From an uncultured Granulosicoccaceae bacterium (GTDB lineage: Bacteria > Pseudomonadota > Gammaproteobacteria > Granulosicoccales > Granulosicoccaceae): a DNA stretch of 57,313 bases. The position numbers and the translations under genes were made by a program. Numbering within the stretch: position 1 is the first letter of the stretch; each line of letters opens with the position of its first letter. Positions 12,803-54,117 of this stretch are shown one piece after another. The stretch covers positions 1 to 57,313 of the forward strand of contig CALDUO010000061.1 in the NCBI GenBank assembly GCA_937923745.1. The letters run 5' to 3'. The notes below the pieces were generated by a model. The model ran no database searches. It saw only the letters and a program-made list of their open reading frames with translations, and had not been told where the DNA came from.

Positions 12803-14284
12803 TCAATTCACAGGCGTTATTTGAAACACTTTGTTTTTTGTGTGCGTGTTCACAGCGTTGATCAGGTCATCAGCACTAAAACGGGTCTGTGCCGTGCGCC
12901 ATTGCTGAGCAGTGACTGGTTTTTGTGCCAAACGTTCAATAATTGTGTCAACCCCCAGCAGGCTCTCGTCTGCTGTGAACGACCCAAGCTTGACGCGAGT
13001 GATCAGGTTGTCGAGTGGGTCGCCAGCTGGCTGATCAGCTTGTACTCGCAAATAGTTGGCCGTGTAGCCGAAATGTCTGATCCCTGACTCGGTGACTCGA
13101 CCCGTTTCCCACAGAATAGTCGCCTCCTGCCCAACATTTTGTAGCAGGGTTGCCTGTTTGCTGCGCGCTGCCAACCGGTGCAGCGCCTGACTGCGCGCCT
13201 TTTTAACGGCTCCGTGGATCTGTCGTGGAAAAGCCGCCGCGTGCGTACCCTCGCGGCCGGAGAAACTGAAGATGTGGATGTGCGAGAACTGCATATCTTC
13301 AATAAAAGCCATGGAATCTGCCCACTCTGCGTCGGTCTCGCCGGGAAAGCCCACGATGACATCTGTGGTCACGCCAAAGTTGGGCATCAACGACCGTATG
13401 TGGTTGACCAGCGCAGCGAAGTCTTGGGTTTTACAGCGTCGCGCCATGCGTTTGAGCACCGTATCGCTGCCGCTCTGCAGTGGCAGGTGCATGTGCTGCA
13501 TCAGGCGGTCGTTTTCAAAGAGCTCGAAAAAGTGGGGTGGCAGATCCCAGGGTTCAACGGATGCGAACCGAATACGGGGAATGGCGGTCTCGCACAAAAT
13601 TGCCTTGACCAACGAATGAAGATCACTGTTGATGTCACTGCCATAACCGCCAACATGAACGCCTGTCAGCACGACCTCCTGTACGCCGCTGTCATATAAC
13701 CGATTGATTTCATCGACGATGTCGGTAACGCTGCGGCTACGTTCCTCTCCCCGAGCCAGAGTCACCACGCAATAAGTGCATTTGTAGCGGCATCCGTCCT
13801 GTATTTTGATAAACGAGCGTTGGCGATTTCGCTCAAACAAGGCTGCCGAGCCGGGGCGGGTTGCGTGTGTTTGAGCCAAGCCGTCACCCATGCCAGTATC
13901 GCTGGCAGACACTGGCTTGGATGCATGGGCTTCGAGGTGTTCAAGCGTCAGCTCGGGCAGCTTGTCTTTGACGGCATTGGTGACGACCAGATCGACACCC
14001 ATCGCCATCAACTCGTTATTGACCTGTTGCGCATCACCGGGCAGTGACGGATAACAGCCGCTGACGATGAGGCTGGCCGCCGGATTTTGTCTTACCACTC
14101 TCTGAATGAGCTGACGAGACTTTCGCACCGCTTGTGAGGTCACTGCGCAGGTGTTGAGCACCACCGCATCGGCATCGTCGAGGCTGTTGGTTAACCCGTG
14201 GCCTGCTGTCTGAAAAACATGCGACCAGGTTTCGAGCTCTGCCTCGTTGAGTCGGCAACCGAGCGATGCAAGGTGTATCTGCAC
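12803..14284 (-). CDS. mtaB: tRNA ms2t6A methylthiotransferase MtaB
   Basis: A 493-residue radical-SAM methylthiotransferase. MtaB converts t6A37 to ms2t6A in tRNAs reading ANN codons. The N-terminal UPF0004 domain starts at once (LASLGCRLNEAELE, Cys10) with further cluster cysteines in LNTCAVTS and VSGCYPS. The radical SAM CxxxCxxC motif is DGCRYKCTYC around residue 168. The C-terminal region fits a TRAM-like RNA-binding domain. SLGCRLNEAE separates MtaB from MiaB and RimO. The start is GTG at 14284, supported by how closely the domain begins to it. It lies upstream of aceE on the same strand. A second methylthiotransferase, RimO, is at 43734. Confidence 0.85.
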   Translation of the reverse strand: MQIHLASLGCRLNEAELETWSHVFQTAGHGLTNSLDDADAVVLNTCAVTSQAVRKSRQLIQRVVRQNPAASLIVSGCYPSLPGDAQQVNNELMAMGVDLVVTNAVKDKLPELTLEHLEAHASKPVSASDTGMGDGLAQTHATRPGSAALFERNRQRSFIKIQDGCRYKCTYCVVTLARGEERSRSVTDIVDEINRLYDSGVQEVVLTGVHVGGYGSDINSDLHSLVKAILCETAIPRIRFASVEPWDLPPHFFELFENDRLMQHMHLPLQSGSDTVLKRMARRCKTQDFAALVNHIRSLMPNFGVTTDVIVGFPGETDAEWADSMAFIEDMQFSHIHIFSFSGREGTHAAAFPRQIHGAVKKARSQALHRLAARSKQATLLQNVGQEATILWETGRVTESGIRHFGYTANYLRVQADQPAGDPLDNLITRVKLGSFTADESLLGVDTIIERLAQKPVTAQQWRTAQTRFSADDLINAVNTHTKNKVFQITPVN

Positions 14285-14697
14285 AGTCTGTATGGATCCG
14301 GGAGTTGGAAGAATATCGTGCGTTATGGTAACCGATTCGATGCTGTATCGCGCAGTTTCCGTCTCTGGTACGCGGGCAATTTTTGCAATAGGTCGACTGG
14401 TGCCTCTGCCCGGTCAATGTATTTTGGTTGAGACACACAACGGATTGATCAAGCCGAGTGTCTGCCACGCACCAGTCACGGACGACTCACGGACGACTCA
14501 CGGACGAGTCACCTCTGATAACGACTTGGCACCACCCTAACAGGTTACCTGCGTGTGATCTTATCGCTGTCGTGTAATTGTCACCAAGTATAAATTTTTA
14601 TCGCTTTAATCCCGGTAACGCGTTGTGAGTACAACGCCTTTTCGTTAGGATAAGGGTACTAATATCCACGCACACACCAAGCAAAGGATCGAAGCTT
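14285..14697. other. Gene-free divergent spacer between mtaB and the OmpA-family gene
   Basis: 413 bp. Contains an 11-bp tandem array (14477-14509). A 7-bp hairpin lies at 14620-14637 (GCGTTGT, loop GAGT, ACAACGC) followed by CTTTTCG, which could be a weak attenuator in the leader of the plus-strand gene. An AT-rich stretch near 14578-14610 may hold that gene's promoter, but spacing is poor. Confidence 0.5.
14477..14509. repeat. 11-bp tandem array, 3 units
   Basis: CACGGACGACT occurs twice in a row and a third time as CACGGACGAGT. The partial unit CACCAGT precedes them. It is in the spacer upstream of mtaB. Confidence 0.85.
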
Positions 14698-17600
14698 ATG
14701 TCCAGTAATTTTCTCAACACGCCGAGTCGCACCTCGTATCTGCTCAAGCTCGCGCTAGCAGCGCTAACATTGCTTGCGCTGATCGTTGCGTGGTACGCGA
14801 AGTCTGGCGTTTCCAGTCGATACACCGAGCTGGAAACATCGCATCAGTCACTGACCGCAGAGTACGCCTCTCTCGAGACGTCACAGAGCGAGCTGTCAAA
14901 CTCGTTGAGCGCGATGGGTACGCAACTGGCTGATACCGAAACGCAACTCGCCGATACCCGGCTTGACCTGGAGGCCAAATTAGCGGCTGCCAGCACGGGC
15001 GTCGAGGAGTCTGAAGCACAACTGGCACAACTGAACACTGAGCTTGCGGACGCTCAAACCACCGTAGCATCGCTGGAACAGGCGGTGGGTGAACGAGACG
15101 CCGCCATTGAGGCCGCCAAAGCACAACTGGCCGAGCGCGATGCCGAGCTCGACACACTGAACACGCAACTGGCTGAGCGTGATGCGAGTTTGCAACAGAG
15201 CGAGCAGTTGTTGCTGGAGAAAGACGCAGCCATCGAACAAGGCAGTCTGGCGCTGGCAGACATGGAATCGAAAATGGAGACGGCGACGGCAGAGGTACAG
15301 TCGCTGTTTTCAAGGCAGCAAGAAGAGGCAGGCGGTGAAATCGAGAGTCTCCGGGCACAGGTCGAGACGTTAACCGCAGACCTGACCGCACGAGACGAGA
15401 CCATTGCCGAGATGCAGGCCGCCACGTCCGACTCCGAGTCAGCTGTGGGTACCCTCAACGCTGATCTTGAAGCTGCAAATGCGCAGGTTGCCGAGCAACA
15501 GGCCAACGTGGCCTCTGTAACAGAAGAGCTGGGGCAAGTTACAGCCGAGCTGGAACAAACCAAAGCCGAGCTGGAGCAGGCCAAAGTCGAATTGAGCGAC
15601 TCGACCGCAGCGATTGCGGCCAATGAACAACAACTGATTGACCGCGACTCAGCACTCGAGCAAATGAATCAACTCCTGCTCGATGCAGAGGGTCAAGTCG
15701 CTGAACGGGATTCAAACCTCGAGGTCATGCAGGCAGAAGTACAGGGCTTCATGGGTTCCAAAGATGAGCTGTCAGGTCAACTTGAGAGTGCAGCCGCTGC
15801 CAACGCCGAATTGCAAGCGACGCTTGACGCCGAAACTGCAGCGCTGAACGAACAAATTGGCACGCTTGAGCAAGCAAAAGCCACACTCGAAGAGCAAGTG
15901 GCAACACTTGAGGGTGAGGTAACCGGACTCCAGGAGTCGTTAACTGCCGCAGAAACATCGTTGGCTGATGTCGAAGCTGCCGTCGCAACGAAAGACACTG
16001 CGCTGGCCGACATTGACTCGCAATTAGCGGCAATGACAGCAGAACTCGAGAGTGCGAAAAGTGAAGCCTCTGCAGCGGTTGCGTCTACGGAAGCAGCCTC
16101 ATCAGAAGCGGCAGATCTGGCTGCACGGCATTCAACCGAGACAGTACAACTGAATGACGAAATTGCGCATCTTCGTGGCTTGAATCGTGATTTGCGCGCA
16201 GAGATCACCTCACTGAACGCGGATTCAGAGGCTGCCAAAGCCGAGTTTGACCAAGTCAGGCTAGCACTGGACAGAGCTCGCGAAAAAGAACAACAGCTGA
16301 TCGATCTGACTGCTGTCGCGGCAACGTTGAGGAGCTCTGTCGATGAACTCGAAGAATCAAACACCGTGAATGCCAATGGTTTGCTGGCAGCACAAGGCGA
16401 GGCAGACCAGGTCAAGGCATCACTGGAAGCGCTGCAGGGTCAGTATGACACCGACATCGCTTCACTCAATGATCAGGTTGCTGAGCTGTTGACCGAACGA
16501 TCAGCGTTACAACAGCAGGTCGCTGACCTCCAAGCGGACATTGACGCCTCTGGTGTTGCGTTAGCGGAAGCTCAGGCTTCAGCTGCTGAATCTGTGTCGG
16601 TTGCCAGTCAGCTCAAAACTGACCTCGAAGCGATGTCTTCGCAAAGCGCTGACGCAGGTGAGTTACAGGTGCAGATTGACGCGCTACGCACCGCACGCGA
16701 TTCACTGGTTGAAGAAAACAGTGCACTGCTTGCCGATGCCGAGAGCAACGCTGATGAAACGCTTAAATTGCAGAACTCTGCGGAGGAGCTGCGTAATGCC
16801 AATGCCCAACTGATTGAGCAAATTGCTCAGTTGCAGAACGCCAGCACCGAACAGGGCGATGTGGCTGCGGCTAACGCTGAACTCACGACTGAAGTAGAAG
16901 AACTGTCAGCGGAGGTAGAAGAACTGACTACGACCAATGCGACGCTTGCCGGTGAAATCGAAACACTAACCGCCAGTGTCGGCACATTGGAGGCCGACGG
17001 CACCAAGCAACTCTCGACGATTGAAAACCTAACCGCACAATTAGAAGGCATCGGCGGTGAGAAGGGCGAGCTCATGGCTCAAGTCACCGATGCTCAAGCA
17101 GCGACCGTCGATCTTCAGGCCAAGCTGGATGAGGCAGAGAGTGTGAATGGTGAGTTAAGTGCACGTGTGCTCGAACTCGAAAACAGCGGAGCATCGCTGC
17201 AGGCAGAACTGGAGGCTAACGCCGGTAGTCTTGAGGCGACTGGTGCTGAACTCGAAGCGCTGCAAGCAACCAACAGTGACATGATGGCGCGGGTCGAAGA
17301 GTTGGAGACGGTTAACACTGCTGCTATGGAAGAGAAGGCCCTGCTTGAGGCCGAGCTTGAATCGTTAACAGCAAACGTCGAGGCAATGACCGCCGAGAAC
17401 GGACAGCTGAAAACAGAAGTTGATGGTTTTATGGCTATTAAGCCAGACCTCGAAATGGCTGTCAGTGACCGAGAGGCGTTAGCAACCGAACTGACCGCAG
17501 CGCAGAGCGCAAACACTGAACTGATGGCGCGTCTCGATGAGATGGCAGCAGCGGCCAGTGAGAGTCAAGCAGCTAACGAGCAACTCGCAGCGCAGCTGGA

Positions 17601-18660
17601 GTCTGCTGGTGGCAGTAAGCAGGAGCTCGCCGCTGAAATTGATGGTCTGAAGACAGCAAATGCAGACCTGCAGGCCAAGCTGGACGCACAGATGGCGGCG
17701 GCAGATGAAGCACAGGCGGGCACCGAGGCGTCAATGGCTGAATTGCAGGCCAAGTTAAGCGAGACCGAGGCAGGCCTGTCTGACACTGAAGCACAACTGG
17801 CCAACGCTGAAGCGCAACTGGCCGAAATGAACGCACTGCAAGAGGCGCAAGCGGCTGCGGAAGCTCAAATAGCTGACCTCAATGCATCGCTGGAACAGGC
17901 GCGTGCACAGGCTGATCAAACCGCAGAGGCGCAAGCGTCTCTGGATACTCAGTTAAACGAGATGACTGTGGCCAATCAGGAACTCGCTGGTATGATCGCA
18001 GCGCTGGAAGCCAAAGAAGCCGAGTTAATGAGTAACGTTGATGCGGCTAACCAGAGTGCCTCAGACGAGGTAGCTGCGCTTCAGGCTCAATTGGAAGCCA
18101 GCGAACAGGCTGCACGCGAGCAAGAGGCCTTGGCCGCCAGATTGGCCGAGCAATTGGCAGCAGCTCAGAACGCTGATGCAGCGATGGCGGCCGATGCCGA
18201 GACATTACGTGCACAGGTCGAGCAAAGCCTAAGCGATGCTGGCGTGGCCGGCGCTGAGGTTTCGGTACGACCCGATGGCGCAGTGGGTATCAACCTGTTG
18301 AGTGAACAACTCTTTGGTTCTGGCCGCGCCCGATTGAGCGGTGAAGGTCAAGTCCTGATGGATCAAGTGGCAGCTTCGTTAGAAGACTTCCGTGAGAACC
18401 CGATCCGGATAGAAGGTCACACTGACTCCATCCCGGTCACCGGGCAGTTGCAAGCGATATTCCCGAGCAACTGGGAGCTGTCTGTCGCCCGTGCTGCGAA
18501 TGCCGTTAACTATCTGCAAAACAACAGTGGTTTCTCTCCGGAGAATTTGTCGGCAAGCGGCTTCGGCGAATTTCAACCGGTGGCGCCAAACAATACCCGT
18601 GAAGGTAGAGCACGTAACCGACGTATTGAACTGGTCATTAGCCCGCAGACTGCGCAGTAG
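14698..18660 (+). CDS. Giant inner-membrane coiled-coil protein with C-terminal OmpA domain
   Basis: 1320 residues. Residues 1-12 are cytoplasmic, and one hydrophobic helix spans about 13-34 with no cleavage site, so it is probably an inner-membrane anchor. From about 38 to 1170 the sequence is almost entirely Ala/Glu/Gln/Leu-rich heptad-like coiled coil with local repeats (for example ETQLADT twice in tandem, then variants of AQLAERDA). The last 135 residues are an OmpA/MotB peptidoglycan-binding domain (IRIEGHTDSIPVTG, FPSNWELSVARA, NRRIELVIS). The design is MotB-like: anchored in the membrane, gripping the cell wall. A fully extended coiled coil of this size would be about 165 nm, much longer than the periplasm is wide, so it must fold back or run parallel to the wall. 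AAGGA lies 9 nt before the ATG. No motA-like neighbour is present. Exact function unknown. Confidence 0.8.
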   Translation: MSSNFLNTPSRTSYLLKLALAALTLLALIVAWYAKSGVSSRYTELETSHQSLTAEYASLETSQSELSNSLSAMGTQLADTETQLADTRLDLEAKLAAASTGVEESEAQLAQLNTELADAQTTVASLEQAVGERDAAIEAAKAQLAERDAELDTLNTQLAERDASLQQSEQLLLEKDAAIEQGSLALADMESKMETATAEVQSLFSRQQEEAGGEIESLRAQVETLTADLTARDETIAEMQAATSDSESAVGTLNADLEAANAQVAEQQANVASVTEELGQVTAELEQTKAELEQAKVELSDSTAAIAANEQQLIDRDSALEQMNQLLLDAEGQVAERDSNLEVMQAEVQGFMGSKDELSGQLESAAAANAELQATLDAETAALNEQIGTLEQAKATLEEQVATLEGEVTGLQESLTAAETSLADVEAAVATKDTALADIDSQLAAMTAELESAKSEASAAVASTEAASSEAADLAARHSTETVQLNDEIAHLRGLNRDLRAEITSLNADSEAAKAEFDQVRLALDRAREKEQQLIDLTAVAATLRSSVDELEESNTVNANGLLAAQGEADQVKASLEALQGQYDTDIASLNDQVAELLTERSALQQQVADLQADIDASGVALAEAQASAAESVSVASQLKTDLEAMSSQSADAGELQVQIDALRTARDSLVEENSALLADAESNADETLKLQNSAEELRNANAQLIEQIAQLQNASTEQGDVAAANAELTTEVEELSAEVEELTTTNATLAGEIETLTASVGTLEADGTKQLSTIENLTAQLEGIGGEKGELMAQVTDAQAATVDLQAKLDEAESVNGELSARVLELENSGASLQAELEANAGSLEATGAELEALQATNSDMMARVEELETVNTAAMEEKALLEAELESLTANVEAMTAENGQLKTEVDGFMAIKPDLEMAVSDREALATELTAAQSANTELMARLDEMAAAASESQAANEQLAAQLESAGGSKQELAAEIDGLKTANADLQAKLDAQMAAADEAQAGTEASMAELQAKLSETEAGLSDTEAQLANAEAQLAEMNALQEAQAAAEAQIADLNASLEQARAQADQTAEAQASLDTQLNEMTVANQELAGMIAALEAKEAELMSNVDAANQSASDEVAALQAQLEASEQAAREQEALAARLAEQLAAAQNADAAMAADAETLRAQVEQSLSDAGVAGAEVSVRPDGAVGINLLSEQLFGSGRARLSGEGQVLMDQVAASLEDFRENPIRIEGHTDSIPVTGQLQAIFPSNWELSVARAANAVNYLQNNSGFSPENLSASGFGEFQPVAPNNTREGRARNRRIELVISPQTAQ

Positions 18661-18790: not shown

Positions 18791-18905
18791 GCCGCCAGGT
18801 CCATTGTTGCCATTTCTGGTGTTGCCATTTCTGGTGTCGCCAGTTCCAATGTTGCCAGTTCCAGTGTTGCCCGCTCCAATTCTGCCAGCTCCAGCGTCCA
18901 GAATA
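18791..18905. repeat. 15-bp tandem array, about 8 units
   Basis: The heptamer GTTGCCA or a variant recurs at 18791, 18806, 18821, 18836, 18851, 18866 and 18881, exactly every 15 bp, with a decayed last copy at 18896. Typical full units are GTTGCCATTTCTGGT and GTTGCCAGTTCCAGT. Neighbouring copies are more alike than distant ones, as expected for stepwise local duplication. Confidence 0.9.
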
Positions 18906-19111: not shown

Positions 19112-19324
19112 TTGGGGAGGGGCGCTTTGGAGTAGCCACGGGGCCAGCCACGAGGCCGCCGGTAACACCGTCAACGGTGAACCGGTAGCGCCTGCTCTCT
19201 CGTACCGGTTCTGTTAGGGTAGGGTAGGTACAGCAGTCAGGCAGTCGCAATGAAGCATCCGCTCCACGGTTGCTACTGTATTTTAAAAAAACCGGTTGTA
19301 CCCGAAGGATTCCGGGTTACAACC

Positions 19325-19990
19325 ATGACCGACAAGGTAACGTGTGTTGTGGCAGTGATAAAAAAAAATCCAGAGTCATGGGATGGGACGATTACCGTGG
19401 CAATGACCGGTGCATCCGGCATTCAATATGGGCTGCGGCTGGTGGAATGTCTGCTTCAGGCAAACCGGCAGGTCTATCTGTTGATGTCCAAGCCTGCACA
19501 GATTGTGATGGGAATGGATACCGATATACCGGTTCCGACCCGTGCCAGTGATGCACAGCGACAATTTAGTGAGTTGTATAATGCCGCACCGGGTCAGTTA
19601 TTGGCCTTCGGGCAAGAAGAGTGGACAGCGCCGGTGGCGAGCGGCTCGGGGGTGTCTGACGCGATGGTTGTGTGTCCCTGTACCACTGGCACGCTGGCAA
19701 GCCTTGCCGCCGGGTTGTGCACCAATTTGACAGAACGTGCCGCCGATGTTGTGCTCAAGGAAAACCGGCGGCTCATTGTCATGCCGAGAGAGATGCCTTT
19801 TTCGGTAATTCACCTTGAAAATATGCTGAAGCTTGCGCGCATGGGAGCGATCATCATGCCGCCTAATCCGGCTTTTTATAACCGACCGACAACGCTTGAT
19901 GAAATCATAGACTTCATTGTGGCGCGCGTCCTCGATCAACTCGATGTACCACAAACACTCATGCCTCGATGGGGCATTGATCAGGCCTGA
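19325..19990 (+). CDS. ubiX: UbiX-family flavin prenyltransferase
   Basis: UbiX joins dimethylallyl phosphate to FMN, making the prenylated flavin cofactor used by UbiD-type decarboxylases in ubiquinone synthesis. Visible motifs are ITVAMTGASGIQYGLRL (flavin binding), SGSGVSDAMVVCPCTTGTLA, PREMPFSVIHLENML and MPPNPAFYNRPTTLDEI. These make the family assignment firm. The start at 19325 is preferred over an in-frame ATG at 19250, which would add 25 residues with no family counterpart; even so about 25 residues precede the usual UbiX N-terminus. The stop overlaps the next gene by one base (TGATG). A ubiquinone hydroxylase gene lies 5 kb away (25137). Confidence 0.88.
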   Translation: MTDKVTCVVAVIKKNPESWDGTITVAMTGASGIQYGLRLVECLLQANRQVYLLMSKPAQIVMGMDTDIPVPTRASDAQRQFSELYNAAPGQLLAFGQEEWTAPVASGSGVSDAMVVCPCTTGTLASLAAGLCTNLTERAADVVLKENRRLIVMPREMPFSVIHLENMLKLARMGAIIMPPNPAFYNRPTTLDEIIDFIVARVLDQLDVPQTLMPRWGIDQA

Positions 19991-33472: not shown

Positions 33473-34786
33473 TTAACCGGCAAAACCTTGCAGTTTTTCC
33501 AGAATGGGCGTCATGATCGGGTCGACCACAGTGCCAACGCCCGGAATACCGCGGACCGTTTCGAGCAACGGTTCAAGTGCTGCAACACCGGTTGAGACAA
33601 TAGAACCCAGCGGGCCACGTGCCGCCTCTGGCAGCTTGTCCATCATGCCGGTCAAACCTTCTACTTTATCACCCATTTCAGTCAGTTGCGGCAGCGCAGC
33701 TTTTGCGGACTCAACATCAGTAATACCGCCAAGGCTCTCTTTGGCAGTGTCAAACACGCCTGTCAGTTCGGAACTGATGCCGTCTACGTCCAGCGCACCT
33801 GCGGCTGATTCAACCGCATTACTCGCTGAATCTGCTGCAGAGGCAGCGGCATTCGTTGCCGTGTCGGCAGCACTGGTTGCAGCAGCTGTTGCACTATCGG
33901 CAGCGCCCTGTACACCGTCTGCGACGTCATCACCTGAACCGCCAAAGAATTTAAGACCCAACCAGCCCAGCAGAATCAAGCCGATGATCGGCAGTAATTT
34001 CTTGATCAGAGATGAACCGCCAGAGGCAGCATCGCCGACGGTATCAGTCACTGACCCAGCTGCGCTGCTTACCGTGTTGGCCGCTGAATTGGCAGCGGAA
34101 CTTGCGGCGGAACTTGCGGCGTTGGTAGCAGAGTCAACTGCATTACCGGCTGCGGTGGTGACATTGCCCACTGCGTCGCCAGCTGCATCACGGATGCCAC
34201 TGACAGCGCCGCTCGCGGCATCGGTACCAAAGCTGCTGATGCTGCCCAGGAACCCAGAGGTTGCCAGTTGATCAGACAGCCCTGCAGGCATCGCAGCGTT
34301 TATGTTGCTGCTTTGACCTTTCAGCATATCGACCAGACCGCTCGCGCCCATGCCGTCGCCCATGACCTTTCGCTTGAGTACGCCAAAGATGATGGGACCT
34401 AACAGGCCAAGCAGTGAGCTCGTATTACCTTTGCTTAAACCGGATACCGATGAGACAACGGTGCCGAGTGTGCCGAGAGCACCATTGCCCATGAGGCCAG
34501 ACAGCAGTCCTGAGCCAGATTCCATCAGTTTGCTGGCATTGGTGCCGCTTAGCATACTGCCCATGTTATCGAGCAGACCATCGTCCTGGTCTTTGACAGC
34601 GTTGAATAGACTTTCAGCACCACCGGGTGCTGTTGCTCTTGCAGTAACACCCTGCAAGAGTGCGGGTACGGCAGCTGATATACCGGCGCTGGCATGACTG
34701 CCCTGGTCACCGAGTAGCGTACCTACTTGACTCGTTACCTGATCGCCGATGTGATCTTTGACCATATCCATAATATTGAACGACAT
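33473..34786 (-). CDS. DUF937-domain protein with Ala/Ser-rich region and membrane segment
   Basis: 437 residues. The N-terminal 165 residues carry DUF937-type sequence (AAVPALLQGVTARATAPGGAESLF, LLGPIIFGVLKR). Residues about 200-245 are Ala/Ser/Asn repeats. One membrane helix lies near 258-278 (LLPIIGLILLGWLGLKFF). A second Ala/Ser/Thr repeat tract (about 285-330) precedes a helical C-terminal domain. The repeats look like amphipathic 11-mers (AAxSAAxxAAN type) seen in LEA-like and phasin-like proteins. Function is unknown. GAGGA lies well placed before the ATG. Confidence 0.7.
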   Translation of the reverse strand: MSFNIMDMVKDHIGDQVTSQVGTLLGDQGSHASAGISAAVPALLQGVTARATAPGGAESLFNAVKDQDDGLLDNMGSMLSGTNASKLMESGSGLLSGLMGNGALGTLGTVVSSVSGLSKGNTSSLLGLLGPIIFGVLKRKVMGDGMGASGLVDMLKGQSSNINAAMPAGLSDQLATSGFLGSISSFGTDAASGAVSGIRDAAGDAVGNVTTAAGNAVDSATNAASSAASSAANSAANTVSSAAGSVTDTVGDAASGGSSLIKKLLPIIGLILLGWLGLKFFGGSGDDVADGVQGAADSATAAATSAADTATNAAASAADSASNAVESAAGALDVDGISSELTGVFDTAKESLGGITDVESAKAALPQLTEMGDKVEGLTGMMDKLPEAARGPLGSIVSTGVAALEPLLETVRGIPGVGTVVDPIMTPILEKLQGFAG

Positions 34787-53748: not shown

Positions 53749-54117
53749 AGTGCCGAGAATGTCGAGAGGATTCGCCGAAAAGAGTCATTTGTTAAAATGA
53801 ATCGCGCGCTGCGGTGCCAGTGCGTAGTGTACCAGTGAGCGTCTGGCTCGCCTGCGCGTAAAAATTATAATTGAGCAATGCATCGCACTGGATCAGCAAA
53901 CCCGGCCCATCAAAGCCGGGCCACTAATTTCGGGCCACCAAATTCGGGCCACTAAATTCGAGCACCTAAATTTGGGCCCCTAAATTTGGGCAATGATCAG
54001 TCGATCACGCAAGCACGAGGCGCTACAACCCAAAGGGCTCTAAATGGGCTTTAAAAATACTGTCCCCAAAACGTGAGTCGCCTACAATGGGCGGGTGCAG
54101 TGAAAGGTGAAGCCAGT
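53749..54117. other. Gene-free divergent spacer with 14-bp array
   Basis: 369 bp between the wecA-like gene and the second glycosyltransferase gene. The main feature is the 14-bp array at 53904-53991. Apart from that only short A/T-rich stretches are visible. Confidence 0.55.
53904..53991. repeat. 14-bp tandem array, about 7 units
   Basis: A GGG (once GAG) core recurs at 53918, 53932, 53946, 53960, 53974 and 53988, exactly every 14 bp, with a decayed copy at 53904. Typical units are GGGCCACTAATTTC, GGGCCACCAAATTC, GGGCCACTAAATTC and GGGCCCCTAAATTT. A period of 14 rules out a coding repeat. Confidence 0.92.

Follow-up and report, generated by a model that had tools for sequence, protein, structure and literature searches.

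The window, a stretch of 57,313 nt that makes up contig C61 (CALDUO010000061.1) of a 4.1-Mb, 85% complete assembly from an uncultured Granulosicoccaceae bacterium, carries a gene for a 1320-aa protein in which a single transmembrane (TM) helix is joined through a very long coiled coil to a peptidoglycan (PG)-binding domain. The initial annotation had described a coil of roughly 1130 residues running from the inner membrane to PG, with an extended length near 165 nm, far beyond the periplasm. Both statements were borne out: the coil has 1135 residues between a TM helix and an OmpA domain, and at 0.1485 nm per residue its contour length is ~168 nm (127–233 nm at the extremes of the long forms). 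The parts of the gene are as follows.

14698..18660, + strand: coil gene (TM / coiled-coil / OmpA protein, 1320 aa), an exact open reading frame (ORF) with syntenic orthologs
14683..14688, + strand: probable ribosome-binding site AAAGGA, 9 nt ahead of the ATG, from sequence
14698..14736, + strand: short N-terminal cytoplasmic segment MSSNFLNTPSRTS, which is MFRDFEKAPSRSSYQLKF or MIDDLLNTPSKNSYLLK in relatives
14737..14796, + strand: single TM helix LLKLALAALTLLALIVAWYA, residues 14–33, with no Asp and no lipobox
14806..18210, + strand: coiled coil, residues 37–1171, from heptad analysis, with 13 register shifts and a net charge of −171
17881..18237, + strand: uninterrupted 119-residue helix, residues 1062–1180, running into the PG-binding domain (AlphaFold2, 19 relatives)
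18310..18621, + strand: OmpA/MotB-type PG-binding domain, from Pfam, motifs and fold comparison
18424–18426, + strand: Asp1243 of the HTD motif, the diaminopimelate (DAP)-binding Asp of the OmpA family (PMC6572160)
18490–18492, + strand: Arg1265 of the LSVAR motif, the DAP-binding Arg of the OmpA family (PMC6572160)

The coil consists of 22% Ala, 14% Glu, 13% Leu and 3.6% Gly, with 1 Pro. Its hydrophobicity is periodic, with one sharp spectral peak at 3.5 residues, and its windowed heptad order is 0.71 compared with 0.35 ± 0.02 in shuffles. A seven-state cyclic heptad hidden Markov model (HMM) was trained on relatives only, with the window coil held out and a prior that at the outset did no more than weakly favour hydrophobic residues at two positions, the training being otherwise unsupervised. 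The model converged on L31 I15 V14 R8 K7 at position a, L51 A15 at d, Glu/Gln at e and g, and Ala/Glu/Ser at b, c and f, and the held-out coil scored +387 bits on it against −333 ± 24 for its shuffles. Eight of the 13 register shifts in the window coil have an offset of 4 (stutters) and five an offset of 5, and the longest run is 200 residues; among the long orthologs the longest runs span 141–576 residues and the shifts are again mostly stutters. Stutters keep a coiled coil continuous. All the canonical marks of heptads are present, namely hydrophobic a and d positions, charged e and g positions, a maintained register and a conserved core. Judged only from the Leu at d and the Lys, Arg or Asn at a, the coil would be a parallel dimer.

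At the C-terminal end, a confident AlphaFold2 model of the last 260 residues (pLDDT 91.7) has one straight helix, the 119-residue helix listed above, entering the PG-binding domain. The domain itself matches PF00691 over residues 1205–1308 (E 3.4e-19, 69.4 bits against a gathering score of 27.2), and the HTD and LSVAR motifs, which hold the Asp and Arg that bind DAP in the OmpA family (PMC6572160), are invariant across 15 relatives. At the other end, the N-terminus and TM helix had 0% amino-acid change in two close pairs. The rod and both of its anchors are well supported.

Purifying selection on the coil is strong, with a dN/dS of 0.054–0.073 where dS was measurable. Over five close pairs, amino-acid change by heptad position was 8.0% at a, 7.0% at d, 14.0% at e, 16.2% at g, 23.5% at b, 24.5% at c and 26.4% at f, so that change at a and d was lower than at the remaining positions (p = 2e-41). 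Length evolves in steps of the same period. Insertions between close Granulosicoccus species measure 7, 14, 28, 35, 70 and 84 residues, some of which can be recognised as tandem duplications (six units of 14 residues, for instance, or two of 35), and in seven close pairs 26 of 35 coil indels were multiples of 7, against 1 of 14 in neighbouring control genes from the same genomes (p = 2e-5). When all pairs were counted, 147 of 263 coil indels were multiples of 7 and a further 43 were 4 mod 7 (4, 11, 18...), compared with multiples of 7 in 1 of 47 for neighbouring genes. In both counts pairs share branches, and the events are therefore partly non-independent. An excess of multiples of 7 could also come from slippage between 21-nt units without any selection, for which the indels are thus no proof by themselves; it is the conservation of the a and d positions that shows selection on the coil.

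The initial annotation had also stated that internal duplications show growth of the coil by tandem repeat. The signal for them is weak in the DNA of the window and moderate in the window protein, where the best self-match, at lag 14, scores 624 and the highest score among 40 heptad-preserving shuffles is 523; several relatives show them plainly, at lags of 35, 49 and 70. The growth mode stands on the in-register heptad indels and tandem duplications among close relatives, which indicate that the coil grows by tandem repeat, in register. Length change by whole turns is as expected of a real rod whose continuity matters, and the gene offers a clean natural case of protein length evolving in whole heptads.

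Full-length orthologs number 33 with the window protein; 32 of them are 1039–1754 aa and one, from the genus labelled g6, is 494 aa. The locus is kept in genera g1–g4 and g6, where the gene lies between an MtaB-like gene and ubiX, or a LON-domain gene where ubiX is lacking, and a 7.8-Mb single-contig genome (G045) is among those that have it there. The synteny markers in the window are as follows.

12803..14284, − strand: MiaB/MtaB-like radical-SAM methylthiotransferase gene, upstream neighbour
19250..19990, + strand: UbiX-type flavoprotein gene, downstream neighbour

Synteny in independent genomes, including the single-contig one, rules out an assembly chimera, and long syntenic orthologs throughout the family rule out a recent aberrant expansion. 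The comparison of lengths proposed in the initial annotation thus came out in favour of the long form within the family, with 32 of 33 above 1000 aa; the short form that it had named as a contrary result is carried by one genus and by several other families. Apparent short forms in six genomes (G047, G058, G056, G023, G011 and G004) are genes cut at contig ends. A candidate paralog in the window's own genome (C223, 1558 aa) is an Asp/Gly-rich repeat protein with no coil.

The intergenic DNA around the gene holds a 15-nt tandem array of 6.7 copies between the coil gene and ubiX (18794–18894) and an 11-nt array of 3.4 copies upstream of the coil gene (14476–14512); a 14-nt array of 5.4 copies lies in another intergenic region (53903–53991). 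Rfam gave no match within the window.

Across the order, a strong match to the OmpA-type domain of the coil protein was found in 46 of 48 genomes. Outside the family, the closest matches in a scan of named genomes were a single 623-aa frame and ordinary OmpA proteins of 211–392 aa, of which many are lipoproteins, and a plasmid search returned only ordinary MotB, TssL and OmpA matches. In a class-wide sample one other long-form lineage, the family f50, has a TM helix, a coil of ~1000 residues and an OmpA domain, in proteins of 1166 aa (L179), 1023 aa (L180) and 1219 aa (L181). These share architecture, length class and the lack of MreB and PBP2 with the Granulosicoccaceae form, but they come from a different gammaproteobacterial order and sit in a different genomic neighbourhood. 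Short TM-coil-OmpA versions from other families (L182, 428 aa; L183, 414 aa; L184, 376 aa) have the same order of parts and the same C-terminal subfamily as the window protein, but a coil of only ~200–250 residues, and most of the lineages that have them retain MreB and PBP2. A tree of the domain places f50 together with the orthologs and long paralogs of Granulosicoccaceae, but its deep support is weak.

Two further classes of long-coil protein were seen. One, in genera g3 and g5 (L163, L165, L167, L170, L171 and L172; 973–1692 aa), has a DUF937-type N-terminus followed by a coil and an OmpA domain, the N-terminus being assigned by Pfam in L167 and L171, the two scanned, and by sequence likeness in the other four. 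The window encodes a 437-aa protein (33473–34786, − strand) with the N-terminal DUF937 domain (E 6.7e-23) that is fused to coil and OmpA in these relatives. The other class, in g3 (L164, L166, L168, L169 and L177; 767–1113 aa), joins a signal-peptide-like N-terminus to coil and OmpA and is apparently fully periplasmic. Separately, a 12,041-aa ORF of the window's own genome (36 kb; G000:C70:72711-108836, − strand; L139–L141), Thr/Val/Asp-rich with an OmpA domain at its end, probably encodes a giant surface or envelope repeat protein.

Other identities for the window protein were discarded. It has no lipobox and no Cys near its TM helix, unlike an outer-membrane lipoprotein of the Pal/YiaD type, and its scores for crescentin (Rod_CreS, 20.1 against 100 bits) and intermediate filaments (Filament, 27.8 against 40 bits) fall short. 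Matches to SMC, autophagy, intermediate-filament and crescentin models reflect generic coil similarity and are mostly below cut-off, those to NCBIfam SMC models far below it.

Granulosicoccaceae are marine, seaweed-associated Gammaproteobacteria (PMC9238374), and the family with the coil gene is one of marine, mostly round bacteria without the usual rod-shape machinery. A search for shape genes in all 48 genomes available from the order found MreC in two, both of g6. Genuine MreB (~480 bits) was likewise confined to g6; in g1, g2 and g4 the best MreB matches reached 73 bits or less, in frames of 413–677 aa that from their length we read as Hsp70 and FtsA. PBP2 cleared its cut-off in g6 but was missing from 9 of 9 tested genomes of g1–g5, and long-form genomes keep only FtsI-type penicillin-binding proteins (PBPs), which score below the PBP2 cut-off. 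Elongasome loss is therefore family-wide in Granulosicoccaceae, genus g6 excepted, and the papers we found do not describe it. The short ortholog comes from g6 (G005); no ortholog was recovered from a second g6 genome (G009). MreB and PBP2 were also absent in 3 of 3 f50 genomes, as was MreC, for which G096 and G218 are listed as lacking and G306 is scored by its absence from the match list. In the class sample 252 of 276 genomes have MreC, and the five genomes with a long form are all among the 24 that lack it. PBP2 was present in five genomes of other families with short relatives; one short-form genome (G238) had PBP2 but no MreB or MreC match, and its assembly may be incomplete.

Our preferred reading, which we hold tentatively and at somewhat short of an even chance, is that the protein forms a scaffold lying tangentially between inner membrane and wall, in cells that lack an elongasome. 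The protein would be a dimeric, parallel rod of ~170 nm, anchored in the inner membrane and presumably lying in the periplasm, with the PG-binding domain at its far end. Since ~170 nm exceeds any ordinary periplasm, such a rod cannot stand upright, and when extended it would lie in the plane of the membrane, flat between inner membrane and wall, tying its anchor point to laterally distant wall sites. Each coil could then act as a lateral strut or leash, and many rods could make up a load-bearing periplasmic scaffold that contributes to the organisation or stability of membrane-wall geometry where the MreB/MreC/PBP2 elongasome is missing. Going further, giant-coil scaffolds may have arisen at least twice in Gammaproteobacteria without MreB, MreC and PBP2 and taken on the elongasome's spatial or mechanical tasks in round cells, an extension that we think quite unlikely to be right.

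Several observations weigh against the scaffold. The co-occurrence of long coil and elongasome loss rests on about two independent lineages, which makes it a lead and no proof; several other Gammaproteobacteria lack MreC and have no long form, so MreC loss does not imply a long coil; the short ortholog of g6 was seen in one genome only; and g3 and g5 have a divergent MreB homologue (130–188 bits). The neighbours of the coil gene are housekeeping genes that give no functional link, the single-sequence AlphaFold model of residues 1–1200 (pLDDT 50) is too poor to use, and negative heptad scores in 6.3% of the 28-residue stretches of the window coil leave room for flexible joints. The small number of independent losses also suits a passive spacer or tether, a cheap flexible leash that would hold inner membrane and wall loosely together, whose precise length would be unimportant and drift by slippage between 21-nt units and whose link to elongasome loss would be accidental. 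Lengths of 1039–1754 aa within the family agree with such drift, and heptad-block duplications are expected anyway from repeat-mediated slippage, but the strong a/d selection and low dN/dS along the whole coil speak for more than a leash, a short form appears in just 1 of 33 full-length orthologs, and the rate of small indels is not raised (1.2 per 1000 substitutions, compared with 2.5 in neighbours, from 3 and 9 events only). We consider the passive leash unlikely on balance, though a serious contender. The initial annotation had named predicted breaks that give a short antiparallel bundle as the outcome that would speak against an extended rod. Folded back into antiparallel hairpins, the protein would be compact, a few tens of nanometres long, and would span the periplasm normally; the helix is interrupted some ten times in the low-confidence full-length model, and the window has four weak heptad stretches (near residues 155–198, 457–484, 538–581 and 662–711). 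That model decides nothing, and such breaks are not shown: the register is unbroken over as many as 576 residues in one relative and over 200 in the window coil, most shifts are stutters, the weak stretches in relatives examined (0.2–2.3% of 28-residue stretches) are not at matching places, and the confident C-terminal helix is straight. A folded bundle is in our view distinctly improbable.

The rod might instead mark or span the septal region as an organiser of the division site or of another cell zone, coordinating septal wall synthesis, which on this account would be all the wall synthesis that remains once PBP2 is lost. The restriction of long-form genomes to FtsI-type PBPs suits this idea and the highly conserved short cytoplasmic segment could bind a cytoplasmic partner, but no division gene lies near the coil gene, and we judge the idea improbable. 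Least credible is that the protein belongs to a flagellar or other motor stator, as a part of the MotB, TssL or TolR type whose linker has overgrown. The MotB-like architecture of the initial annotation holds for the C-terminal domain, whose closest counterparts by both sequence and fold are MotB, MotS, PomB and TssL (the nearest solved structures to its model being MotB-like DVU_2228, MotS and TssL), and stator B subunits such as MotB, PomB and MotS share the N-terminal TM helix and a PG-binding domain of the same subfamily. Kinship with stators beyond that domain is not supported. Stator B subunits have a functionally critical Asp in their single TM helix (PMC9093738), whereas the TM helices of the window protein and its orthologs have none; no MotA/ExbB/TolQ-like A-subunit homologue was found among the neighbours of the coil gene; and the ~1135-residue coil is foreign to these subunits. 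FliG is missing from the window's genome, and 14 of the 28 good genomes in the order lack it too, yet the domain match is found in 46 of 48, and genuine MotB proteins with the Asp (262–292 aa) are separate in relatives (L175, L176 and L178). The NCBIfam models for MotD (PRK09038, 124.1 bits against a cut-off of 283) and for a PG-binding protein (PRK09039, 110.2 against 305) were not reached. The missing Asp and the absence of FliG rule out a motor role for practical purposes, and we regard it as extremely improbable.

If the tangential scaffold is real, it would bear on how membrane, wall and shape are held together in Gram-negative cells without MreB, which is an open question. A conserved rod that is long in two elongasome-less lineages and short in the family's one elongasome-keeping genus lends itself to a one-gene test, for which cultured Granulosicoccus strains exist.

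Among known long coiled coils, the nearest in kind are the periplasmic spacers Omp-alpha of Thermotoga (~50 nm) and SlpA of Deinococcus (~28 nm) (PMC5082667, PMC9388160). Like the window protein they join a long periplasmic coil to a wall-binding domain, but they run from the outer membrane to the wall, bind it through SLH domains, are 3–6 times shorter and are not homologous to it. In SMC arms, as in the window family, length changes are constrained by coiled-coil periodicity (PMC5344682), but these arms are cytoplasmic and antiparallel and carry ATPase heads. Our literature searches returned no description of the coil protein and no family-wide coil of such length between inner membrane and wall. 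Coiled-coil periplasmic spacers are thus already known, and a version this long that runs from the inner membrane to the wall appears to be new.

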